NCBI GenBank assembly: GCA_018389105.1
Contig: JACATO010000047.1
Coordinates: 248,001-312,000, forward strand
From: Nautilus pompilius
Lineage: Eukaryota > Mollusca > Cephalopoda > Nautilida > Nautilidae
Length of the DNA stretch: 64,000 nucleotides
Reading direction: 5' to 3'
A program made the translations under genes and the position numbers. Every line of letters begins with the position of its first letter. The stretch's first letter is position 1. A model generated the notes under the pieces. It was not told the origin of the DNA. It saw only the letters and a program-made list of their open reading frames with translations, and did not search any database. This document shows positions 3,605 through 57,310 of the stretch, one piece after another.

Positions 3605-3614
3605 AGAGAGAGAA

Positions 3615-3653
<39 letters not shown>

Positions 3654-3709
3654 AGGAGAGAGGAGGAGAGAGAGAGAGAGAGATGGAGAGAGAGAGGAGA
3701 GATGAGAGA

Positions 3710-3748
<39 letters not shown>

Positions 3749-3768
3749 AGAGACTGAGAGAGACAGAG

Positions 3769-3806
<38 letters not shown>

Positions 3807-3957
3807 ATGGAGAGAGAGAGAGCGAGAGAGAGAGAGAGAGATGGAGCGAGAGAGACTGAGAGAGACAGAGAGAGAGCGAGAGCGAGGAGAGAGAGAGAGC
3901 GGAGGAGAGAGAGAGGAGAGAGAGAGAGAGATGGAGATAGAGAGAGGACTGAGAGAG

Positions 3958-4027
<70 letters not shown>
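3605..4027. repeat. (GA)n purine-only microsatellite, ~420 bp
   Basis: An almost uninterrupted A/G tract of GAGA with occasional GGAG, GATGGAG and GACTGAG variants, ending in a pure (GA)n run of about 65 bp at 3962-4026. Its complement generates long Ser/Leu-rich frames that are artefacts. A mirror-symmetric purine tract of this length can form triplex (H-) DNA; that is known for such tracts and is not shown here. Confidence 0.95.
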
Positions 4028-12155: not shown

Positions 12156-12168
12156 CACTGATCAACAA
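12156..12168 (+). repeat. left terminal inverted repeat of the 12.2-kb transposon
   Basis: CACTGATCAACAA, directly preceded by TAA. It pairs with 13516-13528 with a single mismatch; similarity is lost further inward. Confidence 0.6.
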
Positions 12169-12452
12169 AATTAAATGTATTATACTCATTATGAATGCAA
12201 ACCATCTTTTTTAGACTAATTTTTCATGCTGATTTCAAAATTTCACTCCATTTGTATGCAGCACGTATCAGTTTTTCAGTAGATACATGCAAATATTTAC
12301 ATATTTGTATATATGAAATCATTAATGTAATAAATAAGGACATATTATTTTTAGAAAGTAAATGAGTTTATTGAGTTAAAAATCATCACTATCATTCTAC
12401 AAAGAGTGAATACAATGGGTCAGACAAAACAGACAAAGTTAGAACAACAGAG

Positions 12453-13187
12453 TTAGAAACATTGTGATTTGGATTTCCTGCGGTGATCCTGATCTGGTTG
12501 ATCACGGTAAAGTGTCCAGCAGTAAGTAGTCAGCCAGCATGCTGTCATTCCAGAAGCCTTGGTACCGTTTCTCCATAGCATAGCACTAATGTCCTGGTGA
12601 AATCTTTCACCATGTTCATCAGGCACTGCTCCAAGGTTATCTGCGAAGAAATCCAGATTGGAGTCCAAGAAGTGAACTTTCAGTGACATGCGACAACCCA
12701 TTGCTGAGTAACATTTCAGAAGATTCTTGATGCCATCTTTGTAGTCCATTGCCTTCTTGTTGCCCAAGAAATTCTCACAGATACAATTGAAAGCATTCCA
12801 GGCAGGTAGTTCCAGTTCATCCAGTGTTGTCTTGAAGTTGACATCTTTGAGTACTTCTCTAATTTGGGGTCCGACAAAGATACCCTCTTTCAACTTCGCC
12901 CGTGTGATTTTGGGAAACTTCTGTACAATATACTCAAACCCTCTGGCATTTCTCTTCCCTGGTGTCTTTACAAACTGTTTCATCAGTCCAAGCTTTATGT
13001 GCAAAGGAGGCAATAGGACATTACATGGATCTACAAGAGGTGTATTCTTGACGCTAGACAGTCCTGGCTGGTATGATGTTCTTGTCTGCCAGTTTGATTC
13101 CGAATAATGTCTATCAGTTGCCCGACTATCCCATAGACACAAGAAACAACAGTATTTTGTGAAACCTGCCTGCATTCCCATTAACAT
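12453..13187 (-). CDS. uncharacterised transposon-linked protein ('DEHGERFHQDI' family), N-terminally truncated
   Basis: An uninterrupted 244-codon frame, the longest non-repetitive one here. I recognise the sequence type as a family present in many copies in arthropod, cnidarian and mollusc genomes and usually left as 'uncharacterised'. Visible blocks are: C14-x2-C17 followed by LWDSR (residues 18-22) and H27, possibly metal-binding; LPPLHIKLGLMKQFV at 59-73; KEGIFVGPQIR at 100-110; NFLGNKKAMDY at 139-149; LKVHFLDSNLDFF at 169-181; DEHGERFHQDI at 190-200; and a basic tail (HRRKSKS). Family members I know of are longer at the N-terminus, and here the frame runs only about a dozen codons beyond the first Met before a stop, so the start is probably lost. 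Its place between inverted repeats suggests a transposase or accessory protein. The Cys pair inserted before an LH-x-x-x-x-LM block recalls the TNP2/KDZ transposase layout. That link is inference. Confidence 0.7.
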   Translation of the reverse strand: MLMGMQAGFTKYCCFLCLWDSRATDRHYSESNWQTRTSYQPGLSSVKNTPLVDPCNVLLPPLHIKLGLMKQFVKTPGKRNARGFEYIVQKFPKITRAKLKEGIFVGPQIREVLKDVNFKTTLDELELPAWNAFNCICENFLGNKKAMDYKDGIKNLLKCYSAMGCRMSLKVHFLDSNLDFFADNLGAVPDEHGERFHQDISAMLWRNGTKASGMTACWLTTYCWTLYRDQPDQDHRRKSKSQCF

Positions 13188-13515
13188 CAGACCAATTATG
13201 ACTGGACAATTTGAGATGTTGAAATACCTATTTCATCAGACAAAACTTGATTGGTTAATTTAAGATGTTGAAATATTGCATCTGAACTATGCAGCAATGA
13301 ATAATGTAGTTTATTTTAAAGGTATTTTTCCATGATGTAAATGAAATACATGCATACACGTCATTAATTGGAATTTCTATATAATGCATGAGCTAAAACC
13401 AAAAAACTTTCTCATCTTGAAAACTGTACGTGATGTCAAAAAACTAATTGTATATTTAAAATCAGCATTAAAAACTACACTAAGTACACCTTGACATATG
13501 CTTGAGGAAAAATAC

Positions 13516-13528
13516 TTGTTGACCAGTG
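13516..13528 (-). repeat. right terminal inverted repeat of the 12.2-kb transposon
   Basis: The complement reads CACTGGTCAACAA and is followed on the plus strand by TAA, matching the base triplet at the left flank. Confidence 0.6.
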
Positions 13529-22747: not shown

Positions 22748-23277
22748 CTTAGTAAAATAATTCTGGCCGCCAGCCTCGATGTGGAGGCGCTACAAATACT
22801 GGCATTTTGACAACCATTGCTTTCGTATAAAAGTAGCTTTATAAAAGATCAAAATTAGTCTCTATTATATCAATTAATTTTCTTCGTTAAGAGACACAAA
22901 CACTGACTAAAAAATTATGCTCTGGTTTTACAAAAGTGGGGCCTATCTAAATATGGGATCGGTTTCACTTGGAGGTGAAAATCTGCCCTATTTTCTTGTA
23001 ATATTATACTATAGCATATTCATCAGTACAAAAGGAAAATGTTATCGCAAAAGGTGGTATTGACCAGTTATATCGGTTTATTTAACGGGATATCGGGGCA
23101 AGTTGAAAAATAAATTACTTTTATGGTCAGCTAAAGAGAAGCATGAAAATCAGTTTATATATATATGCCTTTGACCATAATTGTAGACCCCACAGCAAAA
23201 TATCTTATACATCACATGTTACCAATTTACTAGTGCGTGTAGTTATAACTATATCAGAATATGACTGTTTGAAAATA
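22746..23277. other. no recognised feature
   Basis: AT-rich spacer between the CT array and the Tigger-like MITE. No frame or motif stands out. Confidence 0.55.
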
Positions 23278-23869
23278 CAGTCGACCCCCGCGTAATCGCG
23301 GCCCCGGTTATTCGCGGGATTTTCCTTAGAACCCAACTAATAATTGTCCGTGGAAACCCCCGCATATTCGCGGAATCGCAATTATCTTCCGCGATTTTTT
23401 AATGGCTTTTTTGTGGCAATATATAATTTATCACGCTTATAACCCTAAATTATTAATAACAATATAATTTACTAATTTTGTAATATAAATACTAACATAA
23501 ATTCAGCAAAATATGAATATAAAATAAACGCTATTGGCTGGAGGTTTGAAAGTAGCCAATCCGAGAGCGTTATTCATTTCTCCTCGCTGCTGATTGGCTG
23601 CTGCCCACGAGGCGCCGTCTCGGGCAGATGCAGCCCAGCAGCCCCGCATCATCCCAGTTTACCGCGTGTAGCTATCTCGAGTGTTTCTCTGAGTGTTGTA
23701 TTTTTTAATTAAATTAGTATTATATATTTACTTATATATTTTTTATTATATTTTACGTTACATTTTGACTTTTATAGGCATTTTTATGCACCACGACCAA
23801 TATTCGCGGTTTTTAACTCTTCGCGGGTGCTCAAGGGATGTAACCCCCGCGAATACCGGAGGACAACTG
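23278..23869. mobile_element. Tigger/pogo-like MITE, 592 bp
   Basis: The left end reads CAGTCGACCCCCGCG after TA (23276-23277). The complement of the right end reads CAGTTGTCCTCCGGTATTCG, and TA follows at 23870-23871. The CAGTYGWCC start, TA duplication and sub-terminal CCGCGAAT-type repeats (for example 23,350-23,390 and 23,800-23,855) are typical of non-autonomous Tigger/pogo elements. The interior is AT-rich apart from a GC-rich part at 23,570-23,690. There is no transposase frame, so it would need enzyme in trans. Confidence 0.75.
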
Positions 23870-43270: not shown

Positions 43271-44689
43271 TACTCGCGGAGGGATTGACACGCTGTAGCC
43301 ATTCGTCGATTCAGAATAGTGCCCGATGTTGGCGTCTCGGCTCGGCGACCTTTGAAAAGGTTTTGCGCACCGGAAGCCAGGATAGGGCGGGATCCAAGAA
43401 AAGTGTCCAGGGCTTCCGTTGCTGGTGCTGCTGTAGCGCGTCTCGAAGATGGTTGATTAGAGAACTGGTCTTATGCGGCGATCATCGCCCCACGGTCTGC
43501 CGATCTGTGCACTCTCGAGGAGGCGATGTTCCTGTTGATAGTGTTGCCACGACGACAGAATGAACGCGATAAACTCCCACAAGATAGAACTACACGCTCC
43601 ATTATTTTCCAACAGTGTAAGATTAATCTTTGTACACGCGCTGCAGCGCTGTTCACTGGACCCCAAAGAAGATTTTTTTTTATATGAATGTCGTCTGCCA
43701 GTTTTTATTCGATTTATTAAAACAGATTTATACACCGTCTCCCAGAGAGGAGAAAGAAGAGAGACTTGTTCGACGACTGGTCCATTCATGAGCATTCGGG
43801 GCTGACCGTCCGCCCCACGCAGCACAAAGATAGCCGACAGGAGAAGAAGGGAGGGAGATCGCTATATATCTACTGACGTCATCTCTTTCGCCCGAGTGAA
43901 CCAACTGCCTTAGACTTCAGTGGATGTCTTGCGAGAACGTTTCCCACAGCAATTAAGGAAGCCAGTGACTGTGAAAAAACCCCAGGTAAGCCGCCACAGA
44001 AAATGATTTAAAACGACGGTAACGTGCGCTCGCGAAGCTTTGTCGTGATGGAGTGCGCAATCGGATAATTAACGAAACCCCCTTTAACACATGAGTGTGT
44101 TTCCCCAGGTCACGTGGTTTCTTGACGCGTTTGTCACGACCCACACGGTTCCCCATTAAAGTGTTTTTATAACCACGCTCTACATAGAAACTGTCGATGG
44201 CCCCTCCGATGCAAGTCTAACCATTGACGTAGTGGAAAAACTACAAACAAACAAAAAAAAAAAAAAATAGGGATGGACGAGATTTAAGTCCTACATAAAG
44301 AAAACTGGCAAGTACCAGATGCTGTCCTTTTGTTCAACATTTAATACCTGACTAAAGAATAGAAGGAATGGAAGCACTCGGGCGATAAACAACAAAGAAG
44401 GGGAAGATGAATGAAAAAGAACTGTCTCAAACGTTTCTCTATATTCCGTCAGCCATGCAGCTGCCTCAAGGATTATATTTAAAGGCGGGATAGCATCTGG
44501 AAAAGAATTCTGGAAGAATCGCAGGAGATTCACGCGGTAGTAGCCGGCTGGATAAACAGGGCTTCCCGCAAAGAACTGCTACCTTTCTTTTCCGCAGAAA
44601 GTCAGGCGCATTCAAATTCTTTAGAAGTCAGAAAGATGAACATAAAACGAGCAAAACAACAGAGAAGAGAGAGAGGAGAGAAGAAAAAC
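43271..44689. other. CpG-rich then ordinary sequence; isolated CRE unit at 43.87 kb
   Basis: CpG-rich to about 43,560 with no recognised coding. TACTGACGTCATCTCTTTC at 43,871-43,889 is the complement of one unit of the minisatellite about 830 bp downstream. Short overlapping frames on both strands at 43,450-43,830 show no family motif. Confidence 0.5.
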
Positions 44690-45176
44690 GAGAGAGAGAG
44701 AGAGAGAGAGAAGAGAGATGACGTCAGTACAGTGAGAGTGAAAGAGAGAGAGAGATGACGTCAGTACAGTGAGAGTGAAAGAGAGAGAGAGATGACGTCA
44801 GTACAGTGAGAGTGAAAAGAGAGAGAGATGACGTCAGTACAGTAATAGAGAAAGATTACGTCAGTACAGTGAGAGAGAGATGACGTCAGTACAGTGAGAG
44901 TGAAAGAGAGGGAGAGAGATGACGTCAGTACAGTAATAGAGAAAGATTACGTCAGTACAGTGAGAGAGAGATGAAATCAATACAGTGAGAGTGAAAGAGA
45001 GAGAGAGAGATGACGTCAGTACAGAGAGAGAGGGAGAGAGATGATGTCAGTACAGTAATAGAGAAAGATTACGTCAGTACAGAGAGAGAGGGAGAGAGAT
45101 GACGTCAGTACAGTAAGAGAGAAAGATTACGTCAGTACAGTGAGAGAGAGATGACGTCAGTACAGAAAAAGAGAGA
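44690..45176. repeat. minisatellite of CRE-like palindromes in a GA background
   Basis: Fifteen units of the form GAGAGATGACGTCAGTACAG with GA-rich spacers. TGACGTCA is perfect at 44719, 44756, 44793, 44829, 44881, 44920, 45011, 45100 and 45152. TTACGTCA occurs at 44856, 44947, 45069 and 45127. TGAAATCA (44972) and TGATGTCA (45042) are decayed. Spacings run 37, 37, 36, then 27-25-39, 27-25-39, 31, 27, 31, 27, 25, so part of the array is a 91-bp higher-order repeat of three sub-units. TTACGTCA always follows the spacer AGTAA(T)AGAGAAAGA. CREB/ATF proteins bind TGACGTCA; binding here is inference. Confidence 0.95.
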
Positions 45177-45179
45177 GTA

Positions 45180-47560
45180 GAAAGAAATATGTGTAAGCTG
45201 TTCCGTGGAAAAGTATGGAAACCACAAAACAGTGTTGAGAAATACTGTATGATAAACTAGCAGACATAAACGGAGTTGTCTCGGAAATTCTGAAAACGCG
45301 CAGAAAGATGCTGCAGACGTCAAAGCAGCCGTTGTAATCCTGCGTTAGAGTTTGCAGAGCGAATGAGTTAAGAGAAACTACGATCATCCCTCTCAAAATA
45401 ACACATAGGGTGGCGAAAGATCCAGATCTAAGGAGAGTAAAGCAGACTATAATTACTGTAGTCTCGCTCAGCCGAACAGAAATACGTTTAATAGCCAAAC
45501 ATTCGATTCTTTTTTCTTTTCATCAGTTAAAGAGAACTGTCGACCATTGATCGCGGCACATGCAGTAAAAAAAAGGCGCTGACTGCAGTCAACATAACTG
45601 ACATTTCTATTTTTACAGAGTCGAGACATCACTCTTGAGGACTAACAGGTTGGCAGTTACCAGGTAAATTACATCTATAAATCTACACGACAAACAGCGC
45701 GAAACTTCCCAGATCTCCGACGACAGAAATAAAGAAGAGATGTTGACGGAGAAAAGAATTATGAGATCTATCAATGTTTTTGAAAACTGATGTTTACCAT
45801 GATGGCGACAATGACAAAGGATGAGAGAAAGCAAGGATTTTCCCTGATCCCTGACACCTAAACGATTCACTAAAAAGAAATCCCTACTCCATGCCAACAA
45901 CTACGGAAAGCGTACCTACAGCCCTTTAGAAGAGAAATTACTTGCATAGCAGATGGGAAGAATAGATTCTAGCATACTGTTATCCAAATGCTGCAGTGAT
46001 CTGACAACGTTTGCCACTCCCCGGCGAAGTGCAATTAATTGCACGTCGTTCCCGATGTGAGTAACGTTATAATTCCATAGGAGTATGAATAAATCATTAT
46101 GGCGTGGTGACGTCTAGACAGTTTATGATGACACCATTATTTATAGGCAAAGGACAAAGATGTTGACGCGCTAATGGAGCATGACAGAAATTGGACAGAT
46201 TTTCTACAGGGAGGCAGAAAAAAAAAACAAGTAAACTGAACAACAAAAAATCTGAAGTAATTTGCATATAGCGCGTCGTTGGTCGCCGGGGTTGAATCGG
46301 TGAAGATCAAGATGATACAGAAAACACATCTCCAAATCATAAAAGAAGCAAAGAAAATAGTCAATTAACGTGCAAAATCTTGCACATGGATTGTCAAAAG
46401 TACTGAGAGAATTTACAAGCAAGAGACAGAATTGTGCAAGGCAGAGGCGGTACACGAAAAACGAAGAAACATTCTCAAAAGATTTACTTCTAAGTCATTT
46501 TTATGGTACCGAGGAAACAACAATACGTTGTAATAAATTAGACAAAGAATCTGCCTAATACAAGATGGTCAGCCATTAACCTATACCTTAATATCATTAA
46601 CGACCACAGGGGCCAGCTAGCTTTGTCTAGATTGAAATAAGCTTTTACCTTTGATTTTTGGATGGACAAATTACACTTTGTCTAAAAATGTAAAATATTT
46701 ATCAATTCAAACCATAAACCAGTAGAAGAGATCTTTTTTAAAAAAGGCATAATAAATACACCTGGACAGAGGCAGAAAATGATTCTTTGCTTACAAATGT
46801 ATGAAAAATGTAATTAGAATGTACCTGGCATCAACAAGGGAATATTTATAGCAACTGATATAGTCGACAACTGAAATGAATGAGATCTTACATGAATCGG
46901 AGGCAAGACTTCACTCTAGAAGAAGAAGCAGAAGCTATAAATATGATATTAAATACTTCTTAAAGAAAAATATGACTTAATGACGCAGAAGGGGAAAGAA
47001 ATGATCGAAACCTTGAAAATCCTAACGAAACTCTCAAGCTAGCATGTGCAGAAAAGGAAGATGTTCAAGACAGTATAAAATTTACTTTACATTTTGAAAT
47101 GAATTAATGAAATATGAGAAAACTCATATTTAAAAATAAAATAGTACTAACGCTGATTGACAGAAGAGTTCACAGAACACCGATGAGTAGCCACGTAACC
47201 AGTTTAAGGGCTCAAACACAGATTTCATCTATGTCATTTCAGATTTCAAAGCTAAAAATCTGTATACTGTCCAGAGATACCAAAGAAGAAAGTGCCAGGT
47301 ATAACGCACAAGGACAGGAAACAAAATCAAATAATTGACATATTCCAATATTTATACTCGGACTTGCAGGGGATTTACAGATCATGGCAGACAATGGAAC
47401 AATTTAACAGTCACGGCTTTCTACAAGTTTATCAGACTCCTATGAATTATTCACGCTACCATCTCACCGGAATATTCTCAGTCCAACGGTAAATCACCAG
47501 CTCAAGAAGAGAGAGGAAAGAAGATGCCACAAAGATGAATCCAGGCTAATTAATTTATAT
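45180..47560 (+). pseudogene. Ty3/Gypsy-type retrotransposon pol relic (RT, RNase H, integrase)
   Basis: Motifs of one pol gene occur in correct order over changing frames. An LTTFATP block at about 45,997-46,020 fits the RT 'LTTFxTP' region. VYDDTIIY at 46,121-46,144 is the catalytic 'Y/V-x-DD' block, followed by MEHDRNWTDFL. QPLTYT at about 46,573-46,592 fits the RNase H entry. NHKPVEEIF at 46,710-46,736 matches 'DHKPLxxI' and is followed by a PGQRQKMILCLQMY block. Integrase DNG at 47,390-47,398 and SPEYSQSNGK at 47,464-47,493 fit the catalytic core. There are stops throughout and no LTR pair was found. Gag and protease are not recognisable. The left edge touches the CRE minisatellite. Confidence 0.75.
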
Positions 47561-48746
47561 ATTTTTTACAAAGTTGCGGATTTCTGTCTACTTTTGTATT
47601 TGCTGCCACACGTTGCCTTATTGATAAAAATTTACTAATCGGTACCTCTTTTTCATTCTTTCCCCCCCTTTTTTCGGATGATGGCAGGATCAGAAGGACA
47701 TGGCGAGTGGCGATGACTGGTATAAGATCTCTGAGCAGTTAGGCCAACAGGAGAACGCAGCAGTGGAAAGTAACCAAAAGAACAAAACTTGACTAATCGG
47801 TTCTGATACAACTGGATTAAATCTGCCCATCTTTACCTGAGATTTAATGATAAAGATTAACCACTTGCTGTTGCTGCCACAACAAAATTTCTTAAAACAA
47901 TTTTTTTTTAGCAATGTTGCATGTAGGAAGGAAGAAGACAAAAAGAAAAAGAAAAGTAAATTTTAACAGGAGCCCATATTATTTAAGGGATAGTTTATCT
48001 CACGAAACGTCTCGTGCCAAGTGTATAATTTCATCAAAATGTTTCTCGTTATACCTAATAGCGTGGAAGTAATACGATAGAGGCGAATTGTGCATCTAAC
48101 TTGAAATGGTATCTAATTACTCGCTATGAACGATGCCACTCGCTATCTAGAAACCGAGTGAACCTTTCAATGTAAAAACGCAATTCCATTCTCCGCATCA
48201 GCTTACATTTCCTGTTGATTTGTTGAGGAAATGTTTGTGAAATGAATAACCTTTCACACTTTTGCTGCTATCTTATTATGTTCGTCAGCATGTCATAGCA
48301 ATTTATTTAAGAAAATCCTCGGTTTCGTTTTCTAAGTTTCCACTAAAATCATTCTCGAATTAATACTTATAAAGGCTACCACATTTATTTGTTTGTGTGG
48401 CTTCCATCATCCCAAAAGATTTAACTGCTCCAAACTATTACAATTCTAATATATACATCCCATTTTTACTTGTACAACTAGTTATTCATGCGCATGACTG
48501 AGCAAATACAATTAGGTAAATATTTTTCTCGTTGATCAAAACTAATTTAATCGTCTAAAAGATAGAACATTAATATCAACGTTACCGTCTCTGCTAATCG
48601 ATTACCAAAAACCATCTGAGAAGAAAGCATTATACTATTCTTTTTAAGAATAAGTGCATTAATGACATTTGTTGAACATAAAAAAAATCACCGCAAATAC
48701 ATTATCAGTGCATAATTCGTCCAAATTAATATAATCATTGACATAC
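47561..48746. other. AT-rich, no recognised feature
   Basis: Spacer after the Gypsy relic. An LTR could hide here, but I see no matching repeat upstream. There are no frames of interest. Confidence 0.5.
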
Positions 48747-56290: not shown

Positions 56291-56430
56291 TTTATCTTCG
56301 GTATCACCACTGCATTGACGGAAAGGTGAATTCTAAGTGTGCTATCCATGGCCGAGATGTAAGTGCCGGTTCAATGAAGGGTACATGAGTGTCTGCGATA
56401 GTTAAGGATGCAAGGCGACATTGTTAGCGT

Positions 56431-57310
56431 GTTGGTGCTGGGTTTGGTGTTTGGTTGGGTTAGTGTTGGTGCTGGTGCTGGGTTTGGTGTTTGGTTGGGT
56501 TAGGGTTAGTGTTGGTGTTGATGCTGGGTTGGTGTTTGGTTGGGTTAGGGTTAGTGTTGGTGTTGGTGCTGGGTTTGGTGTTTGGTTGGGTTAGGGTTGG
56601 TGCTGGTGCTGGGTTTGGTGTTGGGTTGGGTTGGGTTAGGGTTGGTGTTGGTGTTGGTGCTGGGTTTGGTGTTTGGTTGGGTTAGTGTTGGTGCTGGTGC
56701 TGGTGCTGGGTTTGGTGTTTGGTTGGGTTAGGGTTAGTGTTGGTGTTGGTGCTGGGTTTGGTGTTTGGTTGGGTTAGTGTTGGTGCTGGTGCTGGGTTTG
56801 GTGTTTGGTTGGGTTAGGGTTAGTGTTGGTGTTGGTGCTGGGTTTGGTGTTTGGTTGGGTTAGGGTTTGGTGTTGGTGCTGGGTTTGGTGTTTGGTTGGG
56901 TTAGGGTTAGTGTTGGTGTTGGTGCTGGGTTTGGTGTTTGGTTGGGTTAGGGTTAGTGTTGGTGCTGGTGCTGGGTTTGGTGTTGGGTTTAGGGTTGGTG
57001 TTGGGTTGGTGCTGGGGTTGGGTTGGTGTTGGTGCTGGGTTTAGGGTTGGTGTTGGGTTGGTGCTGGGTTTGGGGTTGGTGTTGGGTTGGTGCTGGGTTT
57101 GGGGTTGGTGTTGGGTTGGTGCTGGGTTTGGGGTTGGGTTGTTGTTGGTGTGGGTTTAGTTTGTGTTGGTTTGGTGCTGGGTTTGGGGTTGGGTTGGTGT
57201 TGGTGCTGGGTTTAGGGTTGGTGTTGGTTTGGTGCTGGGTTTGGGTTTGGGTTGGTGTTGGGTTGGTGCTGGGTTTGGTGTTGGTGCTGGGTTGGTTTTA
57301 GGGTTGGGTT
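56431..57310 (+). repeat. G/T-rich minisatellite with telomere-like words
   Basis: An 880-bp tract whose plus strand is almost only G and T, with A only in TTAG and C only in GCTG. Units of roughly 45-60 bp combine GTTGGTGCTGGGTTTGGTG, TTTGGTTGGGTTAGGGTTAG and TGTTGGTGTTGGTGC. GGGTTAGGG recurs about nine times in the first two thirds and is rarer in the last third. The Gly-Leu-Val-Trp frames it encodes are artefacts. G runs on one strand favour G-quadruplex and R-loop formation (general knowledge). Confidence 0.95.

Follow-up and report, generated by a model that had tools for sequence, protein, structure and literature searches.

A probable non-autonomous, internally deleted Chapaev3-like transposon copy in the genome of Nautilus pompilius

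Chapaev3 and related transposons

Chapaev3 transposons, a Chapaev subgroup within CMC, are exemplified in the available portion of PMC4079192 by a 2,289-bp element encoding a 556-aa transposase with C(2)C, LH and H(4)H motifs. The same portion of that source gives their ends as 5'-CAC ... GTG-3' and their target-site duplications as TWA, always preceded by A and followed by T in all the elements examined there, and it reports empty sites as well as internally deleted non-autonomous derivatives. Garfield and Merrow have two exons, while most other Chapaev3 elements seem to have one (PMC4079192, in part). Among related systems, EnSpm/CACTA elements with a TNP2 transposase have CACTA...TAGTG ends (excerpt of PMC4158355), and the KDZ elements (Kyakuja, Dileera and Zisupton) generate target-site duplications of 7-8 bp (excerpt of PMC12730594). 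In RAG1 the corresponding residues include D708, C727 and C730 (excerpt of PMC4914335).

The window analysed here, a 64,000-nucleotide stretch of the Nautilus pompilius genome, contains an element of which the coordinates are collected in Table 1. Drawing on its ends, its duplications, the empty sites of one copy, the deletion map, the copy counts, the loss of the catalytic aspartates and the decay of the frame, all of which are observed and described below, we conclude with a probability of about 0.92 that the element is a non-autonomous, internally deleted Chapaev3-like transposon copy, from a class whose ancestor lost 1,016 bp and which spread in trans.

Table 1. Positions in the window of the element and its parts
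Feature	Positions	Strand	Remarks
Whole element, very probably an internally deleted non-autonomous Chapaev3-like transposon, 1373 bp	12156..13528	gene sense = minus strand	Based on copy ends and boundary agreement
Left target-site duplication, 3 bp, TAA	12153..12155		A before
Terminal inverted repeat, 3' end of gene sense	12156..12168		CACTGATCAACAA; class consensus CACTGGTCAACAA
244-codon frame, C-terminal part of the transposase	12453..13187	-	C(2)C, LH, H(4)H and E block retained; Cys-rich N-terminal part and the two catalytic D absent
Stretch of ~18 residues shifted out of frame against the class consensus, lying between two short insertions that compensate each other	12525..12578	-	Limits approximate, our own reading
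Junction of the 1016-bp internal deletion	13185..13187	-	3-bp ATG common to both sides, the apparent start codon
Terminal inverted repeat, 5' end of gene sense	13516..13528
Right target-site duplication, 3 bp, TAA	13529..13531		T after

Ends and target sites of the element

A scan of the window for CACT[A/G]..[C/T]AGTG end pairs, 300-3000 bp apart and matching at 11 or more of 13 bases, returned two pairs, and equal flanks were found only at the pair that bounds the element. The inverted repeats of the window copy are imperfect, matching at 12 of 13 bases, with TAA flanks at both ends; those of the class are CACTGGTCAACAA, of the CACTG...CAGTG type, and they begin and end as do the 5'-CAC ... 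GTG-3' termini of Chapaev3. Searches of the 728-Mb assembly (2,558 contigs) identified at least 38 near-full-length copies, including the window copy, in which both ends lie within 3 bp of these boundaries and identity is 95-100% (40 scored of 1,443 candidates). In an alignment of 21 copies the mean column agreement is 0.99 inside the element, as against 0.50 and 0.53 over the 100 columns beyond its two ends, and the similarity of other copies therefore stops at both boundaries. The inverted ends, the TAA flanks and the copies that end at both positions show that the bounded element described in the original prediction is real.

The flanks of 40 copies were inspected and one was dropped, being cut at the edge of its locus, which left 39 high-scoring copies. 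Equal 3-bp flanks occur in 31 of the 39 (TAA in 19, TTA in 11 and TAT in 1, in the gene sense), such that 30 of the 31 are TWA; the remaining 8 copies have no equal 3-bp flanks. In all 31 copies with equal flanks A precedes the duplication and T follows it, as in Chapaev3. The original prediction had proposed a genome search for further copies with the same ends and 3-bp duplications, and such copies are thus present. By our own count equal 3-bp flanks are also found in 33 of 50 delimited elements, full-length and deleted, which partly coincide with the 39 copies.

The joined flanks of copies were used to search for empty sites (89 queries, some copies being entered twice). Spanning matches were obtained for one copy only, located on contig C658 (L053 and L086 are the same copy), for which three paralogous empty sites were found, each with a single TTA. 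The target is ATWAT, of which the central TWA is duplicated, and the duplications and the three empty sites of this one copy conform to the TWA pattern of Chapaev3.

One of the three empty sites for the C658 copy lies in the window itself, at 23275-23438. It belongs to a dispersed repeat at 23275-23459 with relatives in the flanks of two further loci (L007 and L021), all of them empty versions of the occupied site on C658. Other repeats in the window include a tandem array at 44696-45177 with units of 27-91 bp, the unit having the palindrome TGACGTCA beside GTACAGT; the AT skew is 0.23 in 44001-48000. At 56429-57310 there is a tandem array, rich in G, with a 46-bp unit (GTGTTGGTGCTGGG...), and GC skew in the window is strongest (0.336) in the 4-kb block that contains it. 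At 3605-4027 a long degenerate AG/CT microsatellite gives rise to spurious long open frames on both strands.

The truncated frame and its full-length relatives

A protein search of the genome, with 150 matches scored of 7,049 candidates, identified several copies with much longer frames. The full-length relatives are elements of 2.3-2.4 kb, and four of these (L031, L060, L061 and L062) contain a single uninterrupted frame of 553-554 aa that starts MSRQC, consistent with the transposase of ~550 aa, usually in one exon, that is typical of Chapaev3. L031 has a small 5' deletion, which is outside the frame. Compared with the full-length L062, the class to which the window copy belongs is missing positions 343-1358 (1,016 bp), the two sides being joined at a common ATG. 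The loss takes with it 313 codons in all: the usual start, the Cys-rich N-terminal region and the pair of catalytic aspartates.

An unbroken 244-codon minus-strand frame carrying DEHGERFHQDI is indeed present in the window, as originally reported. It is not, however, the intact gene that it was taken for, but the C-terminal part of a 554-aa protein of which the first 313 codons are deleted. In addition, the window copy contains 5-bp and 4-bp insertions relative to the class consensus; approximately 18 residues after DEHGERFHQDI are shifted, and the frame is then restored. The window frame is an open but damaged half-gene from which two of the three catalytic residues are absent. The presence of an open frame within a repeat is poor evidence for an intact gene, and here what is encoded is half a protein, whose frame in this copy stays open through two insertions that compensate each other.

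In the full protein D254, D308, C327, C330, H376, H485, H490, E504 and E507 do not vary among 12 aligned frames; they include the C(2)C, LH and H(4)H motifs of Chapaev3, the LH motif being, in our reading, H376 within LPPLHIKLG. The Cys pair noted originally in the window frame (C14-x2-C17) is the C(2)C motif of the Chapaev/CMC clade and corresponds to C327/C330 of the full protein. The conserved candidates for the three catalytic acids of a Chapaev3 transposase are, in the full-length copies, D254, D308 and either E504 or E507, and the window copy is without both aspartates.

More distant relatives of the transposase are also present. A motif pattern whose arginine codons differ from those in the window family was found at 146 places genome-wide (control, 0), and, judged by eye from variants of a 26-bp motif, perhaps eight or more divergent relatives coexist in the genome. 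The five that were sampled (L109-L113) gave tblastn pieces 34-62% identical, broken by frameshifts or stops. D1, D2 and C(2)C are found in all five, as, by eye, is LH, and H(4)H is found in four, a frameshift affecting that part of the fifth; all five have the E block, but it was by this block that they were picked. Pfam returned no match for the window ORF or for the four long frames, and only two marginal, unrelated matches for three relatives. Ten other window ORFs had no Pfam match at E <= 0.01, which says little about the original statement that all other transposon genes here are wrecked. NCBIfam and PDB sequence searches likewise gave marginal, unrelated matches only, while PADLOC, and Rfam on the window at gathering scores, gave no match. 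In IMG/VR eight stretches fitted a pattern when the protein was used, none of them being confirmed as relatives; two motif patterns yielded no relatives outside the genome in IMG/VR and GTDB contigs, and tblastn at E <= 1 yielded none in plasmids and phages. The string DEHGERFHQDI occurs in no paper of the literature searched. When folded alone, the window ORF gave an uninformative model, with a mean pLDDT of 35.8 and a pTM of 0.22.

Sequence changes in the truncated frame were counted in the 39 high-scoring copies. There are 106 synonymous, 315 missense and 9 stop changes, compared with 108, 300 and 21, respectively, expected from the copies' own CpG-aware spectrum. Only two frame-shifting indels lie inside the frame, both of them in the window copy, against 47 outside it, and in 28 of the 39 copies the frame is open without any indel. 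A control sample consisted of the first ten of 100 listed junction places, skipping the window copy and L019, both of which were in the first sample. Frame-shifting indels were found in nine of the ten control copies, those of L100, like those of the window copy, adding up to a multiple of three; in the first 12 listed junction copies taken together the fraction is 10/12, with L019 open. As nine of ten copies taken by their junction alone are frame-shifted, selection on the truncated frame is rejected, and the depletion of stops and indels in the first sample looks like an effect of search ranking.

These data bear on two other views of the short element. In the first of these it is a small, intact and potentially autonomous transposon with the 244-aa protein as its complete transposase, which agrees with the open frame in the window and in the 28 copies free of indels. 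This view is almost certainly wrong, since it is refuted by the four full-length copies that encode 553-554 aa in one frame, and since the 244-aa frame begins at the deletion junction without both catalytic aspartates, is shifted in most of the first 12 listed junction copies and depends on two compensating insertions in the window copy. Alternatively, the short element may have been kept because its truncated protein regulates transposition, as a repressor derived from a deletion. The low numbers of stops (9 versus 21 expected) and of frame-shifting indels within the frame (2 versus 47 outside) in the 39 copies would favour such a role. Missense changes, however, are not depleted (315 versus 300 expected), the further copies selected by junction are nearly all frame-shifted, and the sequence outside the frame also has more homopolymer runs. 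We consider it highly improbable that the protein of the 1.37-kb class, with its start codon at the junction and the putative zinc-binding half kept, would be made and would regulate the full-length element.

Deletion classes and spread

The deletion junction of the window copy was found at 194 places genome-wide and the terminal 43 bp at 920 (up to 3 mismatches; the reversed-pattern control gave 0 in both cases). Fifty elements were mapped; as these derive from the protein search, the sample is non-random. By our own count 20 of them are complete or almost complete, 9 share the window deletion, 13 are deleted from ~686 to 1276, 6 are deleted from 535 to 1196 with filler of ~10 bp, and the last 2 have deletions of their own. 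The window class is one among several amplified deletion classes. A further copy of the 1.37-kb element (L097, contig C299:123819-125510) has an additional insertion of 121 bp.

Mean pairwise divergence is 2.4-2.5% in three size classes (25, 20 and 21 copies). The window copy differs from the consensus by 1.4% substitutions, within a range of 0.4-1.6% among 21 high-scoring copies, and 7 of the 20 others are more diverged. The copy had been described as relatively young, which holds only in so far as its divergence is typical for the class; it has the most gap columns of the 21 copies (15, the next having 6). In a quick tree of 66 copies the deletion class is not one clade, the largest pure clade containing 12 of its 25 members, and no substitution diagnostic for the class exceeded the threshold of the script. 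Because the signal is weak at ~2.5% divergence, no claim is drawn from this tree. With no single clade and no diagnostic substitution, the view that the deletion arose once therefore derives from the common junction.

The history that we propose for the non-autonomous element begins with the full-length 2.3-2.4 kb form, which would encode the single-exon transposase of ~554 aa. The ancestor of the window class probably lost 1,016 bp at the 3-bp microhomology. As the ends were left intact, the deleted element could still be recognised by transposase produced from other loci of the genome, which would then cut it out, insert it at ATWAT and duplicate the central TWA. Transposition of the deleted form in this manner would have led to its spread to about 194 places. 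Both mobilisation in trans and a single origin of the deletion are what we infer from these features.

It could be argued that the element belongs to EnSpm/CACTA proper rather than Chapaev3, as 3-bp duplications, CA..TG ends and C(2)C plus H(3-4)H are common across the CMCT clade (PMC12730594, in part). This is very unlikely. The ends are CACTG...CAGTG here as opposed to CACTA...TAGTG, there is one short ORF as opposed to two (PMC4158355, in part), TWA between A and T characterises all the Chapaev3 elements examined in the available portion of PMC4079192, and the four long frames contain no TNP2 match. For PF02992 (Transposase_21) Pfam gave no match in these four frames; a genome-wide search was silent, as were its controls. 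A link to TNP2/KDZ enzymes had been suggested originally, and this is not sustained, given the 3-bp duplications here versus 7-8 bp in KDZ elements (excerpt of PMC12730594) and the lack of any Pfam match.

Comparison with known transposons

Every sequence feature of Chapaev3 that could be tested was found in this family, in agreement with the earlier view of a CMC-like relative. The Chapaev3-like placement is proposed from diagnostic features rather than from a tree. The family had been called uncharacterised; its kind is already described as Chapaev3 in PMC4079192 (in part), and it is new only in the sense of having no match to a named family, the named families being compared by description. 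These data indicate that the hallmarks published for Chapaev3 are present in this genome's unnamed protein of the DEHGERFHQDI type, and such 'uncharacterised' genes can therefore be annotated as transposase or its remains. On its own the element, apparently an ordinary animal cut-and-paste transposon copy, has little significance.

The deleted element may be compared with several known systems. A regulatory role for its truncated protein, improbable as it is, would have parallels in the repressor-type deletion derivatives found among other transposons. With Chapaev3 (Garfield, Merrow and Conan) the family shares an element of 2.3-2.4 kb, a transposase of ~555 aa and the C(2)C, LH and H(4)H motifs, together with TWA duplications flanked by A and T and internally deleted derivatives (PMC4079192, in part). 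It differs from Garfield and Merrow, as described in the same portion of that source, in having a single uninterrupted frame in place of two exons. Like the CMCT clade in general (EnSpm/CACTA, Mirage, Chapaev, Transib, Plavaka and RAG1) it has CA..TG ends and a duplication within 2-5 bp, while an ATWAT target is described for Chapaev3 only in the available part of PMC12730594. CAC ends are likewise common to RAG1/Transib (excerpts of PMC4914335 and PMC7204232), although RAG-like elements generate 5-bp duplications (PMC7204232, in part) in contrast to the 3 bp observed here. Within the protein, the distances from the second D to the C(2)C pair are 19 and 22 residues in both this transposase and RAG1, and the H(4)H spacing is identical (PMC4914335, in part). 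The equal spacing speaks for a zinc-bound insertion in a putative RNase H-like core, and by analogy with RAG1 two Cys and two His would bind the zinc. The two proteins differ in the D-D spacing, which is 108 residues in RAG1 versus 54 here, and in the distance from the last His to E, which is 20 versus 14 or 17 (PMC4914335, in part).
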